From Gigantopelta aegis (lineage: Eukaryota; Mollusca; Gastropoda; Neomphalida; Peltospiridae): DNA of 64,000 bases. The first letter of the stretch is position 1, and every line of letters begins with the position of its first letter. The DNA is taken from the NCBI RefSeq assembly GCF_016097555.1, contig NC_054706.1, forward strand, positions 74,244,674 to 74,308,673. The letters run 5' to 3'. Made by a program: the position numbers and the translations under genes. Shown here one piece after another: positions 12,270-57,695 of the stretch. Below the pieces are notes generated by a model, which did not search any database, had not been told where the DNA came from, and saw only the letters and a list, made by a program, of their open reading frames with translations.

Positions 12270-12848
12270 GGCCCTGTTTTATGAAACGATCTTAGTCCTA
12301 AGATCACCTTAAGTGTATAATGTCCTTATGCACTTGAGGTGAACTTAGTACTAAGATCGCTTAATAAAACAGGGCATAACGTCCTTATGCACTTGAGGTG
12401 AAGTTAGTACTAAGATCGCTTGATAAAACGTGGCATAACGTCCTTATGCACTTGAGGTGAACTTAGTACTAAGATCGCTTGATAAAACGGGGCATAACGT
12501 CCTTATGCATTTGAGGTGAACTTAGTACTAAGATCGCTTGATAAAACGGGGCATAACGTCCTTATGCACTTAAGGTGATCTTAGTACTAAGATCGCTTCA
12601 TAAAACGTGGCATAAAGTCCTTATGCACTTAAGGTGATCTTAGTACTAAGATCGCTTCATAAAATGGGGCATAACGTCATTATGCACTTACGGTGATCTT
12701 AGTGCTAAGATTGCTTCGTAAAACAGGGAATAACGTCCTTATGCACTTAAGGTGATCTTAGTGCTAAGATCGCTTCATAAAACAGGGCATAACATCCTTA
12801 AGCACTTGAGGTGATATTAGCCCTAAGATCACTTTGTAAAATTGGGCC
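12270..12848. repeat. 59-bp palindromic tandem array
   Basis: About nine to ten copies of a 59-bp unit; successive GTCC landmarks are spaced 59 bp apart from 12381 to 12617. Most units carry the perfect 18-bp palindrome GATCTTAGTACTAAGATC or a close variant, followed by GCTT(C/G)ATAAAAC. It lies 160 bp downstream of the CAMLG stop codon, so it could be in that gene's 3' UTR, where each unit would form a hairpin in RNA. Confidence 0.85.
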
Positions 12849-20800: not shown

Positions 20801-23800
20801 ATGAGTTGTATATCAATAACATATCGACTGAACTAAAGCAAGTTAGATGTGCTTTGTTTAACAAAGTTGTAAAATGAAAGATGCCATTTCTGTAACAAAC
20901 TGCATTCCGCTAAACATCAAAAACATGAATGTGATACTTATTACTTATGGAAAGCATATTTTACCTTTGTCAGTTACAGTATGTGAAATAAAATATATTG
21001 CAATCAGTTAACTTAAAAACAGTTCGACAAAATTGACAGTAAACAAAGCTGTAACACCATCCAGTAAACAGGAAAGTGTGTCATTAGGTTTTTAACAGCA
21101 TTATGGCACATACATTTGTAAAACCCCCACCTTTTTGCGCATGCATGGTTTGTCATTTTAATTTTTTTTTACTCAAACAAATAGAAGTTTTTAAAATATG
21201 CACTGGTTGAACACTTTGATTGATATTTTTTTTAAAAGGAAAAATCAATTTTGTCAAGATTAGTCAGTTCATCTTTCCACCTCCTTCCATGATTGCTGAT
21301 AACACTTGATGTCAATTCAGACAGGCAATGCGTTCATACCAGTGAATAGGTTGTAAAATATAAATTTTCTAATGAATTGATTCTTAATTAAAATAATTTA
21401 TACACTCAAAATTATTTACAATTATTGTGAATGGATTTTGTATACAATTCACTACAGTAGGTGCCCAAAAATGCAGCATAACTTTTGCAAATCAAATATA
21501 ATAATTGAAAAAAAGAAAGATTCTAACAACAGGGAGAATGACATTCATAAAATTAAATGATTTGGCCTTGTTGATCTGACATGTGGCATGCACTGAATGT
21601 TAATTCATCTTCCTCCGTTTTAACTAAAGGTCTACAAGTTTAATGGGCCCGATATCGGTAATTGTGAGGAATAAACAAAAAGGGTTAGTAAAATGAATGG
21701 TTTTAGAGGTTTGTAAACTTTTGTATTTAGATACTTACTTGTCTAAACTTTATTGTTAATGAAAATATTTGTAAACTGTGAAGAAAAACCTCACACATGA
21801 AAATCAAGCAGACGACGACAAATCTGATGTTGATTGTGCTAACCGTACATAAGAAAACAATTCTAACCTAATTTGAAGCCTAATGCAGTTAGTGACATTG
21901 ACAATACAAGTATCTTAAGACAGAAGTGTAGGTTTCTACGTCTTACATATTCTTAAAAAAAAACTGTTTTAAAAACATTTTGAAATTTCTTTTTCATCTA
22001 AAACATATTTAGGCACTTGCTTTTACAAGATTTAATTCATTAGTCATAGAGAAAACAGTTTCAGGAACTAGTACTAATGTTTTTTAATCATTAGTGTGTA
22101 CCAGCCAATCAAATTTGTTTAAATTGATGTTGGAGATTGATGTGTGATTCAAAATATCTTGCACTGTCTTCTTTTTGGATTTCCTAGAATATTATTTAAT
22201 TGTGAGTGTTAGCAGGCTTTTGTGGTCAGGGGTATAATGTGTCAAGATACTGTGTAAACTGATTTAATTAGATTATGATAGTATAATTATTCTGACCACA
22301 TTGTTGTTGCAAACAAGCAAACACGTGAAACAGTCATTTTCTAATCTTGAATTGAGACCCAGTGTTTTAAATCCATGACAGTATTTATCAAATGCTAAAC
22401 ATATATCAACATACTGTATGTATGGTACACCTCACAGGATCTCAAATAAAACTACAATTTTATTTTTGCCTATTTTTTAAAGTTATTTTTCCTATGTTAT
22501 TTTTTTTTAATGAATGTATATTTAATTTTAAGCTATTCTATTTGTGGTTGATTTCTAGGTTTTACCTGAATTTAGTTAATATTAAATTATAGGTTATAGT
22601 CCTGTGTAGAACTCTTATTTCCTCATTCATATCTTTATTATACATTCTATAATACAATAAAGATTGTCTATAGATAAAGGTCACCATACACTGGAGTATC
22701 ATACTGATGAGAACTATATTAATATGTGCATGTATTTAGTCTAACAGAAATGTGTTCTTGAACTAAGCTGTGTTTATGTATTACTCCTCAGGTATTGCTG
22801 GATGTTGTGCTAAGACAACAGTTGCTCCCCTTGACCGAGTGAAGATCTTACTGCAGGCACACAATCAGCACTACAAGCATTTAGGTCAGTGCTCTTTTAT
22901 GTCAGGTCATAGGGTTTAATGTGCACATTCAGAACATGCTGAACAACATTTAATATATAATTACAATCGTTAAAAAGTTTCTGATGGTCGACATCATCTT
23001 AACAATGGCTGAAAACTCAGGATAGTCCCTTTAATAGTACACTCAGGTTTCATCGCCAATGACATAGGTGTTTATAGCGGAAGGAAGACAGGTGTAGGGG
23101 CAAGGGCACCATACATGGCAGGGGCTCCAATGGTTTGGCAAGTAGCAATTTAAAAAATCCCTGCAACAAAAGGGTCATCTGTGAGGATCAACACCAGTCC
23201 ATGTCCATCACAACCGGTTACAGCTCTATAGTCCGAAGGTTTAACCCTAACCCTAACCCTAACCCTAGGTTCAGTAGTCCGAAGGTTCAACACTAACCCT
23301 AACCCTAGGTTCAGTAGTCCGAAGGTTCAACACTAACCCTAACCCTAGGTTCAGTAGTCCGAAGGTTCAGTAGTCTGAAGGTTCAACACTAACCCTAACC
23401 CTAGGTTCAGTAGTCCGAAGGTTCAACACTAACCCTAACCCTAGGTTCAGTAGTCCGAAGGTTCAACACTAACCCTAACCCTAGGTTCAGTAGTCCAAAG
23501 GTTCAACACTAACCCTAACCCTAGGTTCAGTAGTCCAAAGGTTCAACACTAACCCTAACCCTAGGTTCAGTAGTCCAAAGATTCAACACTAACCCTAACC
23601 CTAGGTTCAGTAGTCCAAAGGTTCAACACTAACCCTAACCCTAGGTTCAGTAGTCCAAAGGTTCAACACTAACCCTAACCCTAGGTTCAGTAGTCCAAAG
23701 GTTCAACACTAACCCTAACCCTAGGTTCAGTAGTCCAAAGGTTCAACACTAACCCTAACCCTAGGTTCAGTAGTCCAAAGGTTCAGTAGTCTGAAGGTTC

Positions 23801-26800
23801 AACACTAACCCTAACCCTAGGTTCAGTAGTCCGAAGGTTCAACACTAACCCTAACCCTAGGTTCAGTAGTCCGAAGGTTCAACACTAACCCTAACCCTAG
23901 GTTCAGTAGTCTGAAGGTTCAGTAGTCCAAAGGTTCAACACTAACCCTAACCCTAGGTTCAGTAGTCCGAAGGTTCAGTAGTCCAAAGGTTCAACACTAA
24001 CCCTAACCCTAGGTTCAGTAGTCCGAAGGTTCAGTAGTCCAAAGGTTCAACACTAACCCTAACCCTAGGTTCAGTAGTCCGAAGGTTCAGTAGTCCAAAG
24101 GTTCAACACTAACCCTAACCCTAAGTTCAGTAGTCCGAAGGTTCAGTAGTCCGAAGGTTTACTGACCTAACACCAGACTATTGAATTTTCGGACCATTGA
24201 ACCTTCAGACTATAGAGCGGTCCCCATCACAACCCACATACCTGCCACCACTTTCTTCAGAGAGCCACAACTGTTGTGTCTAGCAGTTTTTAAATCTGCA
24301 TGTAGTAGTGGTAATCAAAATTTCTGATGAAACTCTTAATTCAAACTTGACCACGGAAATGCAAGCTTTGTTTTAATTAATGATTGATAGTAAAAGTATA
24401 GAAATCAATTAATTCTTGAGTATATTTTGATTAAATATGCATCAGTAACAAGTGAAAATATGTAATAAAATCATGATTCTGTACAGGAGTCATGATTGCT
24501 GTCTGGTATTTCATTTCGTACAGATGTTAAATACAGCGTATACTACTGTGCATGTAGTTTACATAAAATGACATTGTACGGGGACTGTATGTAATGTAGC
24601 AGATTTATCAGCTGATTTTTTTACAATTTGAATAGTTTATCATTGCATGTATGCATATGTGTCTTTCCAGGAGTTTTTTCCACTATTCATCAGGTGGTTG
24701 TGAAAGAAGGATTTCTCGGATTATACAAGGGTAATGGTGTTCAGATGTTGAGAATCTTCCCATACGCTGCCATACAGTTTATGTCCTATGAACAGTACAA
24801 GAAGGTAAAGCCTAATGATTAAGTTGTATATTTAAATATGCTACACATTTATGTTAAGCATTTTTAGAATATAACTGAAGCCTACTTAGAACTGAAAAAA
24901 TTTATATGAATTTTTCTTTACTCAACATATATTAACAGTTTCATGCATACCAATTGTTAAAGATTTGGTGGAATCTTTATAAATTTTTAGAACATATTCC
25001 AATATTAAATTTCTCTTATTTAACAAAAGATTCCTTCAGAATGTTCCCATTGCATTAGTGTTTTGCTATTTTGCTTTGAGTCTTTAATACTGAATTTTGT
25101 ACTGAGGTTGTCTGGTTTTTATTGCAGCTTATCAAGAAATACTTGTCTGAAAACACCCACGTGATCAAATTGACTGCAGGATCTCTAGCTGGTATGTGCA
25201 GACACTTTAAAGTAACAAACCCTAGTTTTTAACACAACGGTGACTGAGTGTATTTTTCACTATAAGAGTCGTTTTTGATAATTGAAATCAGACATTATTT
25301 AAATGTTATTGTTTTTCTTTTTTGATTTTATTTACTATATATTTTGAAACTTTGGGTGCTAGCTACAAATTCATTCTTATCAATGGCTGGACCCTCATTA
25401 TGGTACCGGGGTGGCAACATTCTCAAAGAGAATTGCGAATACAGTACATATTCTGCTTCTCATAAGAATTTTAAAATTAGTTCTATACGTGTCTGTGATG
25501 ATGTTTTCAACTCTGTGTATTTTGTTTTTATCATATTGGTTTATGTTTAGCACAGTTCCGTACACTATATCCATTCCACTGTTCAACCGTAATGTTTGTT
25601 TGTATCTTCTTGAAGATTTTGTACTTGGTGTGTTAAGTCAGTATGCATTATTGTTTTTTTCCTGAATATGACTATTTCACAGCTGTTTACACCATGTTTT
25701 GCTAATAATTTTAGAAGTTTTGTGTTGACATTTGTCATTGCTTACCTTTGTCTGACAGCTAATAGCTGATGTGTTTTTCGTGCTGGGTGTCATTAAATAT
25801 TAATTCAATTAAGCTATGACCACATATACATGGATATGGATCTGATCATGCAGCAAATGCATACAGAAATGGGATGTGACAATCGGACGTAGTGTTCACA
25901 TATGTACGATTATAAATGCAATACATGTACGGCAATAGGTGTTCTAAGTTAAAAGGTAAATTTTGTTTTGTTTACCAACACCACTAACAGAGCACATTGA
26001 TTTATTAATCATTAATCACTGGCTATTGAATATCAAACATTTGGTCATTTCAGACTCGTAGTCTTAGAGGAAACCCGCTACCTTTTTTCCATTAGTAGCA
26101 AGGGATCTTGTATATGCATTTTCCAACAGACAGGACAGCACATATATACCTTTGACATACCAATCGCAGTATACTGGTTGGAACAGGGAAAACAGTCAGT
26201 GAATGGGTCCACTGAGGTGGATCGATCCTATGATGCATGCACCTGTACACAAATATATAAATGAAACAAAATATTTCCCTTAATGAGTAAATGGTCGGTT
26301 TTATACAGCCTCTACATAATCAAATTGTGATCAAATATATTGTCAAACACAGTGCAATCTTTTCTTGATTTTCTTGCTTTCTTTTTTTTATTCCTTCTTT
26401 CTTTCAACAATATTAATTTCTGTCCATATTTAAATAGTATAAATATATTACTGTTGTTAATGCTGTGGTATGTGTTACCTTGTCTATGGGAAAGTGCATA
26501 TAAAATATCCATTGCTAGTAATGGACAAATGTAGTGGGTTTCCTCTCTAAGACTGTGTCAGAATTTCCAAATGTTTGACAGCCAATAGCTAATACATCAA
26601 TGTGCTCTAGTGGTGTCGTTAAACAAAATAAACTTTTTTCAAATGAAACTAGCACGAGGGACTATACTTTCAACTTCTGGTGCACGGTTTGAAGTGCGGA
26701 TACGATTTCAATCGCTATTTGGAGTGATAAACAATATTGTGTCCGTATCCGGACATACGTGAACACCTCCACTAAAAACAATAGTTAGCCATTTTTGCCG

Positions 26801-29800
26801 TATCCAAATCCATATTCGTGTACATGTGCACACAGTTTTAGTCAGCAGCTGGATCAGATCGGTGTGAAATTTGTAAGTGCAAAGGTGTTCAGTTTTGTAA
26901 TTTTACTTGAAACACTAAATTATACCAACAGTTAAGAAAGATATATTTTCCACTTAAAGATAAAATATTTTTCTTTCAGAGTAATGAAAACTGCTCCATT
27001 ATGTAGACAGTTCATTCCATGTATACATGTAGCTGTCCATGCTATAAAAATGTCATAAAACCCTCACATGAATCTTCTCTTTTTTGTTTGCCTTTAGGTT
27101 TGACTGCAGTGGTCTTTACATATCCACTGGATGTCGTGCGAGCTCGACTTGCATTCCAGGTCAAAGGTGAACACATATACCTGGGTTTGCGACACACGGT
27201 CCGGTCCATTGTCCATGTGGAGGGGGGAACTAAGGCACTGTACAGAGGCTTAGTCCCCTCTATTCTCGGAATGGCACCATACGCAGGTGAGAAAAATAGT
27301 TACTGGGATAAAAATTGAATTTGAAAATTATCTTTTGCTATTAGGTGATGTTTTTTTAACCAGTATGTAGACTGATTCATTTTATCATAATCAAACAGAT
27401 TAATTTTGTAAAATGAGCTTTTTGGTAAATTTATTCTGAAATACATGTATAATCTACTGTGGGTGGAAGAAAGGAAGGAAGGAAATGTTTTATTTTTAAC
27501 GACACACTCAACACATTTTATTTATGGTTATATGGCATCAGACATATGGTTAAGGACCACACAGATATAAAGAGAGGAAACCCGCTGTCGCCACTACATG
27601 GGCTGCTCTTTTCGATTAGCAGCAAGGGATCTTTTCTATACACCATCCCACAGACGGAATAGTAAATACCACATCCTTTGTTACATCAGTTGTGGAGCAC
27701 TGGCTGGAACGAAAAATAGCCCATTGGAGTCACAGACGGGGATTGATCCTAAACCAACCATGCTTTCTTGCGAGTGCTTCACCACTGGGCTACGTTCCGC
27801 CCCTCTACTGTGGGTGGAAGCTGATACTGGGATGCAAGCCAGTGACTTATCCACTACACCACTGGGCTACGTTCCGCCCCTCTACTGTGGGTGGAAGCTG
27901 ATACTGGGATGCAAGCCAGTGACTTATCCACTACACCACTGGGCTACGTTCCGCCCCTCTACTGTGGGTGGAAGCTGAACCTGGGATGCAAGCCAGTGAC
28001 TTATCCACTACACCACTTGGCTACGTTCCGCCCCTCTACTGTGGGTGGAAGCTGATACTGGGATGCAAGCCAGTGACTTATCCACTACACCACTGGGCTA
28101 CGTTCCGCCCCTCTACTGTGGGTGGAAGCTGATACTGGGATGCAAGCCAGTGACTTATCCACTACACCACTGGGCTACGTTCCGCCCCTCTACTGTGGGT
28201 GGAAGCTGATACTGGGATGCAAGCCAGTGACTTATCCACTACACCACTGGGCTACGTTCCGCCCCTCTACTGTGGGTGGAAGCTGAACCTGGGATGCAAG
28301 CCAGTGACTTATCCACTACACCACTGGGCTACGTTCCGCCCCTCTACTGTGGGTGGAAGCTGAACCTGGGATGCAAGCAAGTGACTTATCCACTACACCA
28401 CTGGGCTACGTTCCTTCCCTCTACTGTGGGTGGAAGCTGATACTGGGATGCAAGCCAGTGACTTATCCACTACACCACTGGGCTACGTTCCGCCCCTCTA
28501 CTGTGGGTGGAAGCTGATACTGGGATGCAAGCCAGTGACTTATCCACTACACCACTGGGCTACGTTCCGCCCCTCTACTGTGGGTGGAAGCTGATACTGG
28601 GATGCAAGCCAGTGACTTATCCACTACACCACTGGGCTACGTTCCGCCCCTCTACTGTGGGTGGAAGCTGATACTGGGATGCAAGCCAGTGACTTATCCA
28701 CTACACCACTGGGCTACGTTCCGCCCCTCTACTGTGGGTGGAAGCTGATACTGGGATGCAAGCCAGTGACTTATCCACTACACCACTGGGCTACGTTCCG
28801 CCCCTCTACTGTGGGTGGAAGCTGAACTGGGATGCAAGCCAGTGACTTATCCACTACACCACTGGGCTACGTTCCGCCCCTCTACTGTGGGTGGAAGCTG
28901 ATACTGGGATGCAAGCCAGTGACTTATCCACTACACCACTGGGCTACGTTCCGCCCCTCTACTGTGGGTGGAAGCTGATACTGGGATGCAAGCCAGTGAC
29001 TTATCCACTACACCACTGGGCTACGTTCCACCCCTCTACTGTGGGTGGAAGCTGATACTGGGATGCAAGCCAGTGACTTATCCACTACACCACTGGGCTA
29101 CGTTCCACCCCTCTACTGTGGGTGGAAGCTGATACTGGGATGCAAGCCAGTGACTTATCCACTACACCACTGGGCTACGTTCCGCCCCTCTACTGTGGGT
29201 GGAAGCTGAACCTGGGATGCAAGCCAGTGACTTATCCACTACACCACTGGGCTACGTTCCGCCCCTCTACTGTGGGTGGAAGCTGATACTGGGATGCAAG
29301 CCAGTGACTTATCCACTACACCACTGGGCTACGTTCCGCCCCTCTACTGTGGGTGGAAGCTGATACTGGGATGCAAGCCAGTGACTTATCCACTACACCA
29401 CTGGGCTACGTTCCGCCCCTCTACTGTGGGTGGAAGCTGATACTGGGATGCAAGCCAGTGACTTATCCACTACACCACTGGGCTACGTTCCGCCCCTCTA
29501 CTGTGGGTGGAAGCTGATACTGGGATGCAAGCCAGTGACTTATCCACTACACCACTGGGCTACGTTCCGCCCCTCTACTGTGGGTGGAAGCTGAACCTGG
29601 GATGCAAGCCAGTGACTTATCCACTACACCACTGGGCTACGTTCCGCCCCTCTACTGTGGGTGGAAGCTGATACTGGGATGCAAGCCAGTGACTTATCCA
29701 CTACACCACTGGGCTACGTTCCGCCCCTCTACTGTGGGTGGAAGCTGATACTGGGATGCAAGCCAGTGACTTATCCACTACACCACTGGGCTACGTTCCG

Positions 29801-32800
29801 CCCCTCTACTGTGGGTGGAAGCTGATACTGGGATGCAAGCCAGTGACTTATCCACTACACCACTGGGCTACGTTCCGCCCCTCTACTGTGGGTGGAAGCT
29901 GATACTGGGATGCAAGCCAGTGACTTATCCACTACACCACTGGGCTACGTTCCGCCCCTCTACTGTGGGTGGAAGCTGATACTGGGATGCAAGCCAGTGA
30001 CTTATCCACTACACCACTGGGCTACGTTCCGCCCCTCTACTGTGGGTGGAAGCTGATACTGGGATGCAAGCCAGTGACTTATCCACTACACCACTGGGCT
30101 ACGTTCCGCCCCTCTACTGTGGGTGAAAGCTGATACTGGGATGCAAGCCAGTGACTTATCCACTACACCACTGGGCTACGTTCCGCCCCTCTACTGTGGG
30201 TGGAAGCTGATACTGGGATGCAAGCCAGTGACTTATCCACTACACCACTGGGCTACGTTCCGCCCCTCTACTTTGGGTGGAAGCTGATACTGGGATGCAA
30301 GCCAGTGACTTATCCACTACACCACTGGGCTACGTTCCGCCCCTCTACTGTGGGTGGAAGCTGATACTGGGATGCAAGCCAGTGACTTATCCACTACACC
30401 ACTGGGCTACGTTCCGCCCCTCTACTGTGGGTGGAAGCTGATACTGGGATGCAAGCCAGTGACTTATCCACTACACCACTGGGCTACGTTCCGCCCCTCT
30501 ACTGTGGGTGGAAGCTGATACTGGGATGCAAGCCAGTGACTTATCCACTACACCACTGGGCTACGTTCCGCCCCTCTACTGTGGGTGGGGATGCAAGCCA
30601 AGCTGATACTGGGATGCAAGCCAGTGACTTATCCACTACACCACTGGGCTACGTTCCGCCCCTCTACTGTGGGTGAAAGCTGATACTGGGATGCAAGCCA
30701 GTGACTTATCCACTACACCACTGGGCTACGTTCCGCCCCTCTACTGTGGGTGGAAGCTGATACTGGGATGCAAGCCAGTGACTTATCCACTACACCACTG
30801 GGCTACGTTCCGCCCCTCTACTGTGGGTGGAAGCTGATACTGGGATGCAAGCCAGTGACTTATCCACTACACCACTGATGTCTTTGATATTTAATATGTT
30901 TGTAATATTTAACATGTTTCTGATATTTAACCTGTTTAATATTTATCATGTTTTTAATATTAAACACATTTTTGGTATTTGACACTTCTTTGACATTTAA
31001 CATCTTTTTCATATTTATCATCTTTTTTAACTTTAACATGTTATTTTTATCATATTTTTAATATTTAGCATTTAATATGTATAACGTTTTTGATATTAAA
31101 CATGCTTTTAGTCTTTGGTATGCAATTTGTTTTTCTTGGGCGTGTTTCAGGTGTCTCGTTCTACAGCTTTGAAATGAGTAAAATATTTTGTCTTGAACAC
31201 TTTCCGGACGTCCTTGGGAAGCCGTCACCTCTAAGCACTGGAGGAGTTGTTCTGATTCTTCCAGCCAAGCTCTTGTGTGGTGGAATGGCTGGGGCAGTCG
31301 CACAGACAGTGTCGTGAGTCACTTCATGGGTTAACGAGTCATAATCTTTTTGCGGATCATTTTTGGGGGATAACTCTGTTGCATTAAACAGCTTGTAAAT
31401 ATTAATAATGGTTTTATTATCACAAGTAGAATTTTTTTTATCTAAAATGGAGAGGATATAGTGAAATGGATATTTTCAATTTTAAAATTAATATATGCAA
31501 ATTATCAAATTAAACAGTTACAATAAATCTTTTCAAGAAACCTATTTTCATTTGTAATTTATATACAATATAATACAATATAACATAATGTTAACCCAAA
31601 ACCCTAATTTATATAATTTTTAGAAACCATGCTTTCAGAATATACTAATTCATGCAAAAACGGCAGTAGCTGAATATAAAACTATTGCAGTTTTATGTGA
31701 AATATTCCCCAAGTTGTATTATTTAAATGTTCTCTTTGTTGTATTCAGATATCCCCTTGATGTGGTCCGACGTCGGCTTCAGCTGTCAACAATGCTGCCT
31801 GATTCTCATAAATATGAAAGGTGAATATTTTAGTTTATTTTCCTTTTCCATGGCTTCTAGATTATGGTAGCCTCACTTCTATGGCTAGTGATAATCAATG
31901 TTGGGCTAGTAAATAAGTTCTATTGCCTTGCCCAATGGCTACTAAATAGTTTTTGGTCAAATGCTACATTTAAGTCTAATTTGTAAACACGAATATCCTG
32001 CCCACCTAACCACTGCTCCCTCCCCACTAAGCTCTATCTATAGGTGACATATCCGATTAAAAATTGTAATTATTTAAAGTAGGGCTAGTGAATTTTTAAT
32101 CATGGCTAGTAAAAATGTTAAATCGCTGATCCCATGGCTAGTGAATGTTTAATCATGGCTAGTAAAAATGTTAAATCGCTGATCCCATGGCTAGTGGATT
32201 TTTTTAACAATTCTAGAAGACCTGCCTTTTCCCATCTAACATACAGGTACGTTTTCTTGAACCTCGGTAATAGTTAAGTATTTGTTTACCAACTATCAGC
32301 AGAATTAGTTTTTAGTTTTCTCTCAAGAATAGGTGAGATAATGTTAATAAATTAAAGAAAGTTGAAGATGAATAGCAGTGACTATGGTAACATAATAATG
32401 AGGGTTTTTTAATTGACAGGGTTCAGGGTCATAACTAAGTGTGTTTTTTTTGGTACTGTATTAAAAAATTTCAGTGGCCTTCTCAAGATAATATGAAATA
32501 TACTTTTTAATAAATAAACCAGCAAAGTTTATGCTGAATTCCTTTTTTGGTTCTTGAACAATAATGTTCAGTAATACAAACTACCAACATCAAGTGATGT
32601 CATGACATTCTCAAATGACATTTTACGTTCATCGAGAAATGAACAAAGGCACATTGCTATGGCTGGACCAATGGGATGACTTTAAATTGTAATGAATTAA
32701 TACAAATTTAATTATTTTCTTTGTAAAGAGTAATGTTTTGACAAGTATGATAGAACTTCTATGATCTGTAATGACTGTAACACAAGTTTAATTAACGAAG

Positions 32801-34554
32801 GAGTACTGTTTTAACTAGTACTGTAGAACTTCTATGATCTGATTAACCAAGGAGTACTGTGTTAACTAGTCCTGTAGAACGTCTATGATCTATAATGAAT
32901 GTAACACAACTTTAATTAACCGAGGAGTACTGTGTTAACTAGTCCTGTAGAATGTCTATGATCTGTAGTGAATGCAACACAAATTTAAATAACCGAGGAG
33001 TACTGTGTTAACTAGTCCTGTAGAATGTCTATGATCTGTAATGAATGTAACACAACTTTAATTAACCGAGGAGTACTGTGTTAACTAGTCCTGTAGAACA
33101 TCTATGATCTGTAGTGAATGCAACACAAATTTAAATAACCGAGGAGTACTGTGTTAACTAGTCCTGTAGAATGTCTATGATCTGTAATGAATGCAACACA
33201 ACTTTAATTAACCGAGGAGTACTGTGTTAACTAGTCCTGTAGAACGTCTATGATCTATAATGAATGCAACACAACTTTAATCAACCGAGGAGTACTGTGT
33301 TAACTAGTCCTGTAGAACGTCTATGATCTGTAATGAATGCAACACAAATTTAAATAACCGAGGAGTACTGTGTTAACTAGTCCTGTAGAACGTCTATGAT
33401 CTGTAATGAATGCAACACAAATTTAATCAACCGAGGAGTACTGTGTTAACTAGTCCTGTAGAACGTCTATGATCTGTAGTGAATGCAACACAAATTTAAT
33501 CAACCGAGGAGTACTGTGTTAACTAGTCCTGTAGAACGTCTATGATCTGTAATGAATGCCACACAAATTTAATCAACCGAGGAGTACTGTGTTAACTAGT
33601 CCTATAGAATGTCTATGATCTGTAGTGACTGCAACAACCGAGGAGTACTGTGTTAACAAGTCCTGTAGAACGTCTATGATCTGTAGTGAATGTAACACAA
33701 ATTTAATCAACCGAGGAGTACTGTGTTAACTAGTCTTGTAGAATGTCTATGATCAGTAGTGAATGTAACACAAATTTAATTAACCGAGGAGTACTGTGTT
33801 AACTAGTCCTGTAGAACGTCTATGATCTGTAATGAATGTAACACTGTGTTAACTAGTCTTGTAGAACGTCTATGATCTGTAGTGAATGCAACACAAATTT
33901 AATCAACCGAGGAGTACTGTGTTAACAAGTCCTGTAGAACGTCTATGATCTGTAGTGAATGCAACACAAATTTAATCAACCGAGGAGTACTGTGTTAACA
34001 AGTCCTGTAGAACGTCTATGATCTGTAGTGAATGCAACACAAATTTAATCAACCGAGGAGTACTGTGTTAACTAGTCCTGTAGAATGTCTATGATCTGTA
34101 GTGACTGCAACAACCGAGGAGTACTGTGTTAACAAGTCCTGTAGAACGTCTATGATCTGTAATGAATGTAACACTGTGTTAACTAGTCTTGTAGAACGTC
34201 TATGATCTGTAATGAATGCAAAACAAATTTAATCAACCGAGGAGTACTGTGTTAACTAGTCCTGTAGAATGTCTATGATCTGTAATGAATGTAACACAAA
34301 TTTAATTAACCGAGGAGTACTGTGTTAACTAGTCCTGTAGAACGTCTATGATCTGTAGTCGTCTGTTTGTGTTTCCTTTCAGTGGTTGGATTCAGACTCT
34401 GATCGTTATCTACAAGGAGCACGGCATGTCACAGGGCCTGTACCGAGGTCTCAGTGTCAACTACATCCGCATCATGCCGATGGTGGCTGTGTCGTTCACC
34501 ACATACGAGTCCATAAAGCAGATCCTGGGACTTGACACGGGTATAGACAGGTGA
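17811..34554 (+). CDS. SLC25A16: Mitochondrial carrier SLC25A16 (Graves disease carrier homologue)
   Basis: Eight exons join in frame to 963 nt, 320 residues plus TGA: 17811-17886, 22792-22884, 24671-24804, 25128-25191, 27098-27286, 31151-31313, 31749-31820, 34383-34554. All introns are GT-AG. The three carrier signatures are PLDRVKI at residue 38, PLDVVRA at 132 and PLDVVRR at 242, each followed by the second half of a two-helix repeat, so the fold is complete with six membrane segments. Stretches such as GIAGCCAKTTVAPLDRVK, VKEGFLGLYKGNG, RLAFQVKGEH and GLMP/GLVPS-ILGMAPYAG match human SLC25A16 (332 residues) closely. The family member is an inner-membrane carrier linked to coenzyme A import; its exact substrate is unsettled. 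The start has A at -3 and G at +4. Introns 1, 2, 5 and 7 are filled with repeats. Confidence 0.93.
17940..18062. mobile_element. Foldback element, left part (split by LINE)
   Basis: CTTGTGATATCATTTATCAG near 17971 and a TATCAACGAGTGCTGATA stretch ending at 18062 are inverted copies around a short centre. The expected outer right end (complement of CTTGTGATATC) appears only after the LINE, as ATATCACAAG near 20117. The LINE therefore inserted into this hairpin-forming element. Confidence 0.55.
18063..20115 (+). mobile_element. Non-LTR retrotransposon (I/Jockey-group LINE), 5' truncated, nearly intact
   Basis: In SLC25A16 intron 1, same strand as the gene. The reading frame starts in mid reverse transcriptase (SCLGKIYSSILNKRL, at about 18071) and holds motif A (FIDFHKAFDTV), motif B (GVKQGDNLSPTMF) and motif C (WADDLVLL). 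The C-terminus has the CCHC knuckle CKLCKKAVEDEAHFLVDC (C-x2-C-x8-H-x4-C). The 3' end is an (ATTGT)n tail at about 20080-20115. Damage is slight: a 67-bp tandem duplication at about 19223-19356 shifts the frame, and a single TGA at 19628 probably arose from CGA. Endonuclease and ORF1 are absent through 5' truncation. Clade assignment within the I/Jockey/CR1 group is uncertain. Confidence 0.85.
20116..22791. other. SLC25A16 intron 1, remainder
   Basis: AT-rich intron sequence. Apart from the foldback remnant at 20116-20150, no complete element, RNA gene or coding exon was recognised. The 3' splice site at 22791 has a moderate pyrimidine tract. Confidence 0.5.
22792..22884 (+). CDS. SLC25A16: SLC25A16 exon 2
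   Basis: Acceptor CTCCTCAG, donor GTCAGT. It encodes GIAGCCAKTTVAPLDRVKIL and LQAHNQHYKHL, the first carrier signature. Confidence 0.95.
22940..23030. mobile_element. Degenerate fragment of the 49880-type MITE
   Basis: TAATTACAATCGTTAAAA and GAAAACTCAGGATAGTCCCT followed by TTAA resemble the right end of the element at 49880-50247. Confidence 0.45.
23213..24225. repeat. Element with inverted ends filled by a 40-bp telomere-like array
   Basis: In SLC25A16 intron 2. The ends are inverted copies: CTCTATAGTCCGAAGGT at 23224-23240 and its complement (one mismatch) at 24201-24217. Inside are about 20 units with a 40-bp period: GGTTCAACAC TAACCCTAACCCTAG then GTTCAGTAGTCCGAA. Some units have an extra GGTTCAGTAGTCCGAA piece. 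The first unit has four TAACCC repeats in a row. TAACCC is the common animal telomere motif, but here it is embedded in a longer unit. Confidence 0.85.
24671..24804 (+). CDS. SLC25A16: SLC25A16 exon 3
   Basis: Acceptor TCTTTCCAG, donor GTAAAG, ending in phase 0. It encodes VKEGFLGLYKGNGVQMLRIF and PYAAIQFMSYEQYKK, the matrix helix and second membrane segment of repeat 1. Confidence 0.95.
25128..25191 (+). CDS. SLC25A16: SLC25A16 exon 4
   Basis: Acceptor ATTGCAG, donor GTATGT. It encodes LIKKYLSENTHVIKLTAGSL plus A, the inter-repeat linker and start of membrane segment 3. Confidence 0.92.
25757..25806 (+). mobile_element. SINE 3' tail fragment, tail type C
   Basis: TAATAGCTGATGTGTTTTTC then GTGCTGGGTGTCATTAAATA, the tail type also seen at 56155-56235 (complement) and 63958-64000. 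No body upstream. Confidence 0.55.
25964..26240 (-). mobile_element. SINE, alternative head, tail type B
   Basis: Minus strand in SLC25A16 intron 4. Tail TTATTAATCATTAATCACTG near 26000, body AGCAAGGGATCTTGTATATG, and head-side GGGTCCACTGAGGTGGATCG as in the copy at 4688-5066. Confidence 0.7.
26458..26638 (+). mobile_element. 5'-truncated SINE, tail type B
   Basis: It begins at GCTGTGGTATGTGTTACCTT and runs to the GTGGTGTCGTTAAACAAAAT tail. The head is missing. Confidence 0.75.
27098..27286 (+). CDS. SLC25A16: SLC25A16 exon 5
   Basis: Acceptor GCCTTTAG, donor GTGAGA. It encodes YPLDVVRARLAFQVKGEH and YRGLVPSILGMAPYA, the second carrier signature and its partner helix. Confidence 0.95.
27470..27803 (-). 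mobile_element. tRNA-derived SINE, tail type A, with 17-bp target duplication; founder of the 77-bp satellite
   Basis: Minus strand, full length, in SLC25A16 intron 5. Flanked by perfect 17-bp repeats TCTACTGTGGGTGGAAG at 27453-27469 and 27804-27820. The A box (complement of CCACTGGGCTA) lies in the head near 27781-27791. The 77-bp array starts immediately at its 5' end. Confidence 0.88.
27804..30880. repeat. 77-bp satellite array, about 40 copies
   Basis: The period is exactly 77 bp (CTACTGTGG at 27805, 27882 and onward). Units are almost identical: TCTACTGTGGGTGGAAGCTG, ATACTGGGATGCAAGCCAGT, GACTTATCCACTACACCACT, GGGCTACGTTCCGCCCC. Variants include an AACCTGGG form spaced 4, 1, 6, 5 and 5 units apart and one partly duplicated unit near 30585-30610. 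Each unit joins the last bases of the SINE head to flanking DNA. Near identity means recent amplification or ongoing homogenisation. ORFs seen in it are shadows of the repeat. Confidence 0.95.
30881..31112. repeat. Degenerate short tandem repeat (about 18-20 bp units)
   Basis: Repeated variants of GATATTTAACATGTTTTT between the satellite and exon 6, about a dozen imperfect units. Confidence 0.6.
31151..31313 (+). CDS. SLC25A16: SLC25A16 exon 6
   Basis: Acceptor GTTTCAG, donor GTGAGT, ending in phase 2. It encodes VSFYSFEMSKIF and LLCGGMAGAVAQTV, the end of repeat 2 and start of repeat 3. Confidence 0.94.
31749..31820 (+). CDS. SLC25A16: SLC25A16 exon 7
   Basis: Acceptor GTATTCAG, donor GTGAAT. 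It encodes YPLDVVRRRLQLSTMLPDSH and KYE, the third carrier signature. Too short for a normal ORF list. Confidence 0.93.
31850..32215. repeat. GGCTAGT-rich region with a tandem duplication
   Basis: In SLC25A16 intron 7. ATGGCTAGTAAAAATGTTAA and CGCTGATCCCATGGCTAGTG occur twice in a row at about 32095-32200, within a region of scattered GGCTAGT motifs. Confidence 0.55.
32695..34358. repeat. 73-bp minisatellite, about 22 copies
   Basis: In SLC25A16 intron 7. The unit includes GTCTATGATCTGTAGTGAAT, GCAACACAAATTTAATCAAC, CGAGGAGTACTGTGTTAACT and AGTCCTGTAGAAC; spacing of 73 bp was checked at 33246, 33319 and 33392. Early units are more diverged. Some later units carry deletions (for example a shortened ACAACCGAGG join at about 33630 and 34110). 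The array runs to 24 bp before the exon 8 acceptor. Confidence 0.92.
34383..34554 (+). CDS. SLC25A16: SLC25A16 exon 8 (terminal)
   Basis: Acceptor TTTCCTTTCAG only 24 bp after the last unit of the 73-bp array. It encodes GLYRGLSVNYIRIMPMVAVS and FTTYESIKQILGL, then a short tail and TGA. Confidence 0.94.
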
Positions 34555-34571: not shown

Positions 34572-34975
34572 ATTGTCATCACGTCAGCTTGATGTTCATT
34601 AGGTTGTCATCAAATCTGCTTGATGTTCATTGGGCTGTCAATAAATCTGCTTGATGTTCATTGGGTTGTCATCAGGTCAGCTTTATGTTCATTGGATTGT
34701 CATCACGTCAGCTTGATGTTCATTAGGTTGTCATCAAATCTGCTTGATGTTCCTTGGGCTATCAACAAATAAGCTTGTTGTTCATTGGGTTGTTATCTAG
34801 TCAGCTTGATGTTTATTACATTGTCATCATATCAGCTTGATGTTCATTGGGTTGTAATCAGATCAACTTGATGTTCATTGGGCTGTTATCAAATTAGTTT
34901 GATGTTCATTGGGTTGTCAACAAATCAGCTTGATGTTTATTTGGTTGTCAACAAATTGGCTCGAAGTTCACTGTC
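34572..34975. repeat. 31-bp tandem repeat, about 13 copies
   Basis: It begins 18 bp after the SLC25A16 stop codon, so very likely in its 3' UTR. The unit includes TTGTCATCACGTCAGCTTGA then TGTTCATTAGG; copies differ at many sites, so it is older than the 77-bp array. Confidence 0.8.
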
Positions 34976-36485: not shown

Positions 36486-36708
36486 ACATATTTTCAAATC
36501 AATATTGGAGATGACTAGTCAAATGCAAAAGTTAAAAAAGCAAAACAACATTTATTATTGGCAATTTGGCAAATTTGGACAGAATATATTTAGCCAAATT
36601 ACAATTTCAATTAGCTGTTGTCATCTGTGATATGTCTGAGTCTGCATTGAGTTGCAGTTAGGCATCTCTGTACAAGTAGTTTGGCCCAGCTCATCTGTCC
36701 ATATATAG

Positions 36709-38126
36709 TGATCCATATTAGCCTAGCCTCTACTCTTTGACCAATCCAGCTTGGGTGACCCGCAGTTATCCATATTAGCCTAGCCTCTACCCTTTGACCA
36801 ATCCAGCTTGGGTGACCCGCAGTTATCCATATTAGTCTAGCCTCTACCCTTTGACCAATCCAGCTTGGGTGACCTGCAGTTATCCATATTAGTCTAGCCT
36901 CTAACCTTGACAATCCAGCTTGGGTGACCCGCAGTTATCCATATTAGTCTAGCCTCTACCCTTTGACCAATCCAGCTTGGGTGACCCGCAGTTATCCATA
37001 TTAGTCTATCCTCTACCCTTTGACCAATCCAACTTGGGTGATCCGCAGTTATCCATATTAGTCTAGCCTCTACCCTTTGACCAATCCAGCTTGGGTGACC
37101 CGCAGTTATCCATATTAGTCTAGCCTCTACCCTTTGACCAATCCAGCTTGGGTGACCCACTGTTATCCATATTAGTCTAGCCTCTACCCTTTGACCAATC
37201 CAGCTTGGGTGACCCGCAGTTATCCATATTAGTCTAGCCTCTACCCTTTGACCAATCCAGCTTGGGTGATCCACAGTTATCCATATTAGTCTAGTCTCTA
37301 CCCTTTGACCAATCCAGCTTGGGTGACCGCAGTTATCCATATTAGTCTAGTCTCTACCCTTTGACCAATCCAGCTTGGGTGACCCGCAGTTATCCATATT
37401 AGTCTAGCCTCTACCCTTTGACCAATCCAGCTTGGGTGACCCGCAGTTATCCATATTAATCTAGCCTCTACCCTTTGACCAATCCAGCTTGGGTGATCCG
37501 CAGTTATCCATATTAGTCTAGCCTCTACCCTTTGACCAATCCAGCTTGGGTGATCCGCAGTTATCCATATTAGTCTAGCCTCTACCCTTTGACCAATCCA
37601 GCTTGGGTGATCCGCAGTTATCCATATTAGTCTAGCCTCTACCCTTTGACCAATCCAGCTTGGGTGACCCGCAGTTATCCATATTAGTCTAGCCTCTACC
37701 CTTTGACCAATCCAGCTTGGGTGACCCGCAGTTATCCATATTAGTCTAGCCTCTACCCTTTGACCAATCCAGCTTGGGTGACCCGCAGTTATCCATATTA
37801 GTCTAGCCTCTACCCTTTGACCAATCCAGCTTGGGTGACCCGCAGTTATCCATATTAGTCTAGCCTCTACCCTTTGACCAATCCAGCTTGGGTGACCCGC
37901 AGTTATCCATATTAGTCTAGCCTCTACCCTTTGACCAATCCAGCTTGGGTGACCCGCAGTTATCCATATTAGTCTAGCCTCTACTCTTTGACCAATCCAG
38001 CTTGGGTGACCCGCAGTTATCCATATTAGTCTAGCCTCTACCCTTTGACCAATCCAGCTTGGGTGATCCGCAGTTATCCATATTAGTCTAGCCTCTACCC
38101 TTTGACCAATCCAGCTTGGGTGACCC
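36709..38126. repeat. 57-bp minisatellite, about 25 copies
   Basis: The unit includes ATCCATATTAGTCTAGCCTC, TACCCTTTGACCAATCCAGC and TTGGGTGACCCGCAGTT; the 57-bp spacing was checked at 36751/36808. Because 57 = 3 x 19, the minus strand stays open and gives repeated VEARLIWITAGHPSWIGQR, with only small indels breaking it. No flanking exon supports translation. Confidence 0.92.
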
Positions 38127-48111: not shown

Positions 48112-48660
48112 GCTCTAGCTCGGTTGGCAAAGCACTCGCCCGAGATGATTTCGTCTTAAGATAGAATCGCTTCAGTGAATCCATTATCTGATTTTTACCG
48201 GCCTCGGTGGCGTCGTGGCAGGCCATCGGTCTACAGGCTGGTAGGTACTGGGTTCGGATCCCCGTCGAGGCATGGGATTTTTAATCCAGATACCGACTCT
48301 AAACCCTGAATGAGTGCTCCGCAAGGCTCAATGGGTAGGTGTAAACCACTTGCACCGACCAGTGATCCATAACTGGTTCAACAAAGGCCATGGTTTGTAC
48401 TATCCTGCCTGTGGGAAGCGCAAATAAAAGATCCATTGCTGCCAATCGGAAGAGTAGCCCATGTAGTGGCGACAGCGGGTTTCCTCTCAAAATATGTGTG
48501 GTCCTTAACCATATGTCTGACGCCATATAACCGTAAATAAAATGTGTTGAGTGCGTCGTTAAATAAAATACTTCTTTCTTTCCATTATCTGATTCAGCTC
48601 CCCCTCCGCCTTCCGAACCAGTGCCCCACGATTGGTATATCAAAGGCCGTAGTATTAGTC
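48112..48660 (+). mobile_element. Diverged tRNA-headed SINE, split by a younger SINE
   Basis: The left half starts with TCTAGCTCGGTTGGCAAAGC (A-box-like) and ends at the target site. After the inserted SINE the sequence resumes as CAGCTCCCCCTCCGCCTTCC and GAACCAGTGCCCCACGATTG, then the usual TATATCAAAGGCCGT body. Confidence 0.65.
48194..48580 (+). mobile_element. SINE with CCGGCCTCGGTGGCG head, tail type A, 14-bp target duplication
   Basis: The head has GGCATCGG-type sequence with a near-perfect B box (GGGTTCGGATCCC). The middle is TGATCCATAACTGGTTCAAC and the tail TATAACCGTAAATAAAATGT to GCGTCGTTAAATAAAATA. Flanked by perfect TCCATTATCTGATT at 48180-48193 and 48581-48594. Confidence 0.9.
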
Positions 48661-57315: not shown

Positions 57316-57695
57316 ACCGGCCTCGGTGGCGTCGTGGTAGGCCATCGGTCTACAGGCTGGTAGGTACTGGGTTCGGATCCCAGTCGAGGCATGGGATTTG
57401 TAATCCAGATACCTACTCCAAACCCAGAGTGAGTGCTCCGCAAGGCTCAATGGGTAGGTGTAAACCACTTGCACCGACCAGTGATCCATAACTGGTTCAA
57501 CAAAGGCCATGGTTTGTGCTATCCTGCCTGTGGGAGGCGCAAATAAAAGATCCCTTGCTGCTAATCGGAAGAGTAGCCCATGTAGTGGCGACAGCGGGTT
57601 TCCTCTCAAAATCTGTGTGGTCCTTAACCATATGTGTGACGCCATATAACCGTAAATAAAATGTGTTGAGTGCGTCGTTAAATAAAACATTTCTT
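57316..57695 (+). mobile_element. SINE with CCGGCCTCGGTGGCG head, tail type A, 12-bp target duplication
   Basis: Very similar to 48194-48580. Flanked by TCAAAGTATTAA at 57304-57315 and 57696-57707. B box GGGTTCGGATCCC intact. It sits inside AT-rich DNA that continues across the insertion (CTACCTC before, CTGCAGAAAATGGG after). Confidence 0.9.

Follow-up and report, generated by a model that had tools for sequence, protein, structure and literature searches.

A 64,000-nt stretch of the Gigantopelta aegis genome (contig NC_054706.1, positions 74,244,674 to 74,308,673; hereafter the window) contains a 77-bp minisatellite whose units each fuse the head of an adjoining short interspersed element (SINE) to the DNA into which that SINE inserted. 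We consider it very probable that the SINE inserted first, that an 8-mer present in both the SINE head and the target DNA paired to give the first duplication, and that the array then grew. The order of these events in time, the enzymes responsible and whether the first duplication coincided with insertion or came after it are matters that we infer from the present sequence. The same kind of array birth is readable at other loci in this genome.

Anatomy of the array and its SINE

The SINE, which we take to be V-SINE/RUDI-like in both name and domain, belongs to a dispersed, multicopy family. The window alone contains 19 further matches to it, many of them partial or from related families, and the other copies have the same head. 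A genome search with the window copy returned 7428 candidates, of which 40 were scored and the 29 best matches to the window copy were retrieved to build a consensus; an exact pattern for the head plus body matched the genome 18,452 times. The consensus includes the head as part of the family; of the 334 positions of the window copy, 29 (8.7%) depart from it. Boxes A and B were recognised by eye, and Rfam returned no match in 26500-32000 (E up to 1) or in 27700-28020 (E up to 10). As an earlier note on this DNA had claimed, the full-length element sits inside a perfect 17-bp target-site duplication at both of the positions given there; each copy reads TCTACTGTGGGTGGAAG (Table 1).

On the plus strand, each unit consists of SINE head (24 bp), target-site duplication (17 bp) and target DNA (36 bp), in that order, which agrees with the claimed fusion of SINE head to target. 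The array had been put at about 40 units and comprises 40 units plus 8 bp, with unit lengths of 77 bp in 38 cases, 76 bp in one and 88 bp in one. It had also been said to begin exactly at the 5' end of the SINE (27803), which we correct: its start is at 27780, 24 bp within the head. No array is present on the other (3') side of the SINE. Inverted repeats are limited to two in 27440-31200, both within an AT-rich stretch that borders the array.

The start of the array coincides with the 8-mer CACCACTG, which recurs letter for letter, as claimed, 77 bp away in the flanking target (27857-27864). The motif CACCACT begins all 40 units and the full 8-mer begins 39 of them, its last base being altered in unit 4. 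With one mismatch allowed, the match extends to 10 of 11 bases (CTTCACCACTG / CTACACCACTG). The theoretical chance that a single random duplication would have a perfect match of at least 8 bases at both ends is about 1e-4. The array was also said to stop at this 8-mer and to give way to unique DNA; the stop is as described, but the DNA that follows is a degenerate AT-rich repeat rather than unique sequence.

Two uncommon bases connect the units to this particular SINE copy. Head position 8 is A in the window SINE and in 3 of the 29 other copies (26 are without it), and head position 24 is G in the window SINE and in 2 of 29; no other copy has both, although these copies, being the best matches to the window SINE, are a set that favours base sharing. 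The A at position 8 is present in 40/40 units, of which unit 1 is the head of the SINE itself. The microhomology owes its eighth base to the G at position 24; with the family consensus it would be seven bases long. The uncommon head base in every unit argues that the SINE came first, and thus supports growth of the array from the junction of this SINE copy.

The unit is confined to this locus. Searches of the 1.15-Gb genome, in which very common words were skipped, returned 40 matches for an 85-bp junction query and 40 for the 61-bp target half (27804-27864), all at the window locus, and no dispersed arrays of the 77-bp unit elsewhere. The earlier note had named two findings that would speak against its proposal, the satellite at this locus without the SINE and the satellite widespread with independent flanks; neither was encountered, the junction unit and its target half being found only here.

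Table 1. Features of the SINE and the 77-bp array (window coordinates; TRF, Tandem Repeats Finder).
Feature	Position	Strand	Evidence or remark
Target-site duplication, SINE 3' side, outside the array	27453..27469		17/17 identical to 27804-27820
SINE, full-length, tRNA-like head, 334 bp	27470..27803	-	Head at 27803, tail at 27470
Minisatellite, 77-bp, 40 units + 8 bp	27780..30877		TRF, 40.1 copies, 98% matches
SINE head portion of unit, 24 bp	27780..27803	-	Intact in 36/40 units
8-mer CACCACTG in SINE head, putative founding microhomology, SINE side	27780..27787		Breakpoint tie range 8
Target-site duplication, SINE 5' side, within the unit	27804..27820		Intact in 36/40 units
Target DNA portion of unit, 36 bp	27821..27856		Base-by-base unit table
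Unit 37, 11-bp insertion copying its own interior (GGATGCAAGCC)	30551..30638		Unit table
8-mer CACCACTG at array end, putative founding microhomology, target side	30870..30877		Closes the array
Degenerate AT-rich tandem repeat bordering the array	30878..31110		TRF periods 18 and 52; self-matches

Replicate loci and the bases shared at their junctions

Pairs of SINE heads 65-95 bp apart gave 3019 genome matches, and adding a word from the SINE body (spacing 60-90) gave 61 matches at 58 places. These places were sorted by eye in 80-base rows: foreign DNA separates the heads in 27, the window among them, and 31 are duplications inside the SINE head or unclear. We retrieved 21 of the 26 other foreign-DNA places and left out five. 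At least three heads occur in one run in 17 of the retrieved loci and two only in three, and C3:87905088 contains four heads with damaged units between them. Continuation of the SINE past its head at the array end was required by the search, and some of these SINEs are truncated or diverged farther on. A target-site duplication of 13-15 bp with 0-1 mismatch was found in 5 of the 21 (C2:54013667, C4:69172565, C8:2155209, C3:33762682 and C3:93172921) and a weaker one (10/11 bases) at C6:87857362 and C12:3381412, with the 5' copy beside the SINE head and the assessment made without a shuffled control. The target parts, as read, vary from locus to locus; the window's alone was searched genome-wide.

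Three loci on C10 (C10:3401861, C10:3611542 and C10:9755781) are separate doubled-head SINEs with nearly the same short linker, as if a doubled-head SINE had itself spread.

To fit the founding breakpoint, each unit was compared with its parent SINE at one end and with the far flank at the other, and the number of shared bases was taken as the span over which breakpoints fitted equally well. Fourteen loci with a visible far end were fitted; C3:87905088 was unusable (junction fit cost 30), and 13 loci remain, including the window. Left out were four loci in which the far end was not reached (C15:22078277, C6:17954548, C3:93172921 and C11:2074724) and four in which it starts with a head (C3:33762682, C3:63733309, C7:31885458 and C5:11994517).

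The 13 junctions share 8 (window), 2, 10, 5, 3, 5, 11, 5, 4, 4, 0, 5 and 2 bases, with a mean of 4.9. Random breakpoints placed in the SINE and flank of the same loci give a mean of 0.67 and a probability of 0.016 for four or more. Nine of the 13 junctions share at least four bases, as do eight of 12 when the window is set aside (binomial P ~2e-12). Four scores involve a choice: C12:3381412 was conservatively scored 0 where 6 of 7 units permit 5, C2:24285276 was conservatively scored 2 where 3 of 5 units permit 6, C4:69172565 was scored 5 where 3 of 17 units give 2, and C6:87857362 was scored 4 with an indel in its flank. The excess over the null across loci thus indicates that the microhomology in the window is no lucky detail of a single locus.

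Proposed origin and alternatives

In the sequence of events that we favour, the SINE would have inserted, probably within an intron, with duplication of a 17-bp target. The SINE head, on the minus strand, carries CAGTGGTG, which by chance was also present 53 bp upstream of the insertion point. An error of replication or repair may then have paired the two 8-mers and duplicated what lay between them, namely the head (24 bp), target-site duplication (17 bp) and target (36 bp) parts of the unit, and unequal exchange, conversion or slippage would have expanded the resulting 77-bp direct repeat to 40 units. The order proposed in the earlier note (SINE, first 77-bp duplication across the 8-mer, growth) is supported in that the units hold the head, the duplication and the uncommon base, and in that the replicates agree.

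Several observations weigh against this account. No target-site duplication was accepted at 14 of the 21 retrieved loci, and at 4 of 21 the far end starts with a head (three heads at C3:33762682 and two each at C3:63733309, C7:31885458 and C5:11994517), which the simple scheme does not predict. One junction of 13 shares 0 bases by the conservative count and three share 2-3. We saw no empty or SINE-only allele in the assembly, where the left flank (370 bp beyond the SINE) has a single match and thus no second haplotype or paralogue. Finally, the SINE is 8.7% off its consensus yet its target-site duplication is perfect, leaving the age of the insertion ambiguous; descent from a diverged source copy would explain both.

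The first duplication could instead have taken place during retrotransposition itself, in one event with the insertion, if a template switch occurred at the microhomology, either by the cDNA end or in the 5' joining step. The replicates that were read lie at the 5' side of the SINE, which is joined last, but the search pattern covered that side alone. The shared bases lie roughly 17-48 bp within the head and not at its end, and at least one array (C1:3630711) joins a SINE tail to foreign DNA, so that the 5' side is not required. We regard this one-event route as unlikely, though it is the strongest of the competitors.

Growth of the array is reflected in the variation among its units. Twenty-six of the 40 equal the consensus exactly, and changes occur in 14 (units 3, 4, 7-9, 14, 17-19, 24, 31, 33, 37 and 38). 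An identical two-base variant is present in units 3, 7, 8, 19 and 24, one single change is common to units 17 and 18, and another to units 31 and 38. Exchange, conversion or local duplication, and not independent mutation, would be expected to leave variants that recur in this way, and the two-base variant in five units points to exchange or conversion inside the array. A template switch would leave an insertion like that in unit 37. The units differ far less from one another than the SINE does from its family, which suggests that the array is young or well homogenised. With 26 identical units, the copy number of 40 might be partly a product of assembly, the true array being shorter or longer; the 14 units with changes help to anchor the assembly and both junctions are unaffected, and we hold such an artefact to be improbable.

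Slightly less probable still is ordinary recombination between two SINE heads, with the target being an old SINE or tRNA relic. The minus strand of the target half resembles a tRNA A box by eye. In local alignments with two copies of a second SINE family present in the window, the target half scores 28 and 25; the higher value exceeds the 95% point (26) of 300 shuffles but not their maximum (34). By eye, 14 of 16 bases agree between flank and head at C6:87857362. Against a relic, genome and Rfam searches with the target half (both at E up to 10) returned no relative elsewhere and no match, respectively, and the exact shared stretch spans only 2-11 bases in 12 of the 13 readable junctions and 0 in one. 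A 77-bp satellite that existed first and received the SINE at its edge is very improbable: SINEs do insert into repeats, but the unit holds 24 bp of the head of this SINE, a member of a large family, its uncommon base included, and no other site of the satellite was found.

SINE heads compared with other SINE parts

It is possible, if somewhat short of an even chance, that the 5' junction of this SINE family acts as a genome-wide minisatellite nursery in which heads seed arrays far more than other SINE parts do. The same head would meet a new target at each insertion, and head bases that happened to recur within about 50-60 bp might then give rise to a private array, a step that we hold with the same tentativeness. 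Counted as pairs of 15-base words, the head gave 3019 matches, the tail 598 and the middle 544, while the copies themselves came to 18,452 (head plus body), 43,166 (tail plus body) and 114,912 (middle word). More head pairs despite fewer head copies favour a head hot spot, with the reservations that the search words were unequal in length and stringency, that long arrays dominate pair counts, and that the head rows among the matches listed come from only 5 loci, all within the first 10.3 Mb of C1. Body-anchored counts go against a hot spot, heads having 61 in 18,452 and tails 196 in 43,166; these are rows, several per array in both sets and more so for tails.

Of eight tail places that were read, six seem to be a SINE tail joined to a SINE, a seventh is unclear and the eighth joins a tail to foreign DNA. 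This last array (C1:3630711-3633562), a 3'-side counterpart with units of about 45 bp and 24 rows among the matches listed, indicates that tails too can seed arrays and counts against a head hot spot.

Recurrent tail-on-tail joins were also observed: at C1:21999457, C1:26713636 and C1:27402145, for example, a SINE tail has close behind it the 3' part of another SINE, from its own family or a different one. A long array at C3:49542331-49548991, with a spacing of about 67 bp, holds the SINE middle word, so internal SINE parts can become satellites as well.

Genomic setting and other repeats in the window

A coding stretch beside the array (27100-27285) matches mitochondrial carrier proteins (Pfam accession PF00153, E 1.3e-12); a presumed second exon (31153-31311) had no match. 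The adjoining carrier-like stretch suggests that the array is intronic, and the SINE insertion and the array thus probably both lie within an intron. No function is indicated for the array, which is most likely neutral DNA.

Tandem Repeats Finder identified four more minisatellites, at 12317-12841, 32842-34359, 34573-34970 and 36707-38126 (units of 59, 73, 31 and 57 bp, respectively), and no SINE match overlaps them. A composite array at 23242-24159 has 40/56/96-bp units containing CTAACCCTAACCCT, which we take to be a telomere-like motif. ARAGORN called a tRNA of uncertain type at 57320-57391, by eye the tRNA-like head of the second SINE family, of which copies have their bodies at 48359 and 57478.

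Relation to known arrays and significance

Jurka and Gentles reportedly described Alu-derived minisatellites in human in 2006. Such minisatellites are also the subject of Ahmed and Liang (2012), the available text of which attributes only 6% of human transposable element-derived repeats to two established mechanisms (PMC3389668). The human arrays, like the one in the window, are tandem repeats of SINE parts. As far as that text goes, however, their units are described as transposable element sequence with no mention of a fusion of head and local target, whereas the window units fuse both; and set against the 6% explained in human, shared bases are frequent at the junctions of the loci described here.

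The window adds an example to an already published model, in which a segment between short direct repeats is duplicated and then expands. In the form in which PMC3389668 and PMC6947457 cite it, the Haber and Louis (1998) model places the origin of minisatellites between short direct repeats. As in the window, direct repeats of 5-10 bp delimit the unit, the array ends in one copy of them, and expansion comes later; the founding segment of the window, bounded by an 8-bp direct repeat, is within this range of about 5-10 bp, and the recurrent microhomology across loci fits the model. The window differs from what is cited there in that one short repeat was brought by a SINE with its target-site duplication, so that the prior state can be inferred.

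SINE-derived satellites of squamates resemble the present arrays in their tandem SINE parts, an extended terminal SINE unit at one end and many independent origins, going by the accessible portion of PMC10702118. One squamate unit type includes 44 nt to which no origin is assigned there. The abundant squamate units are mainly internal SINE sequence common to loci, whereas those described here combine the head with a locus-specific flank. Among gastropods, PcH-sat of Patella caerulea is likewise a tandem repeat with a SINE part (Nin-SINE); according to the portion available, it makes up about 10% of the genome, is pericentromeric and has a SINE part without boxes A and B (PMC11121367). The window array, by contrast, occupies a single locus and keeps the head end of its SINE. 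Tandem repeats derived from transposable elements, SINEs among them, are documented in reviews and surveys. Private arrays of SINE head plus local flank were not described in the partly available sources of our literature search, which left subscription papers mostly uncovered and is weak evidence of absence.

The first duplication of a minisatellite is rarely visible because the unduplicated state is lost. A SINE gives a known starting sequence, and both sides of the founding junction thus become readable. Replicate loci further let the length of the shared bases, the position of the junction and the size of the array be measured, such that the beginnings of arrays can be studied in replicate and the role of microhomology in array birth becomes countable rather than anecdotal.

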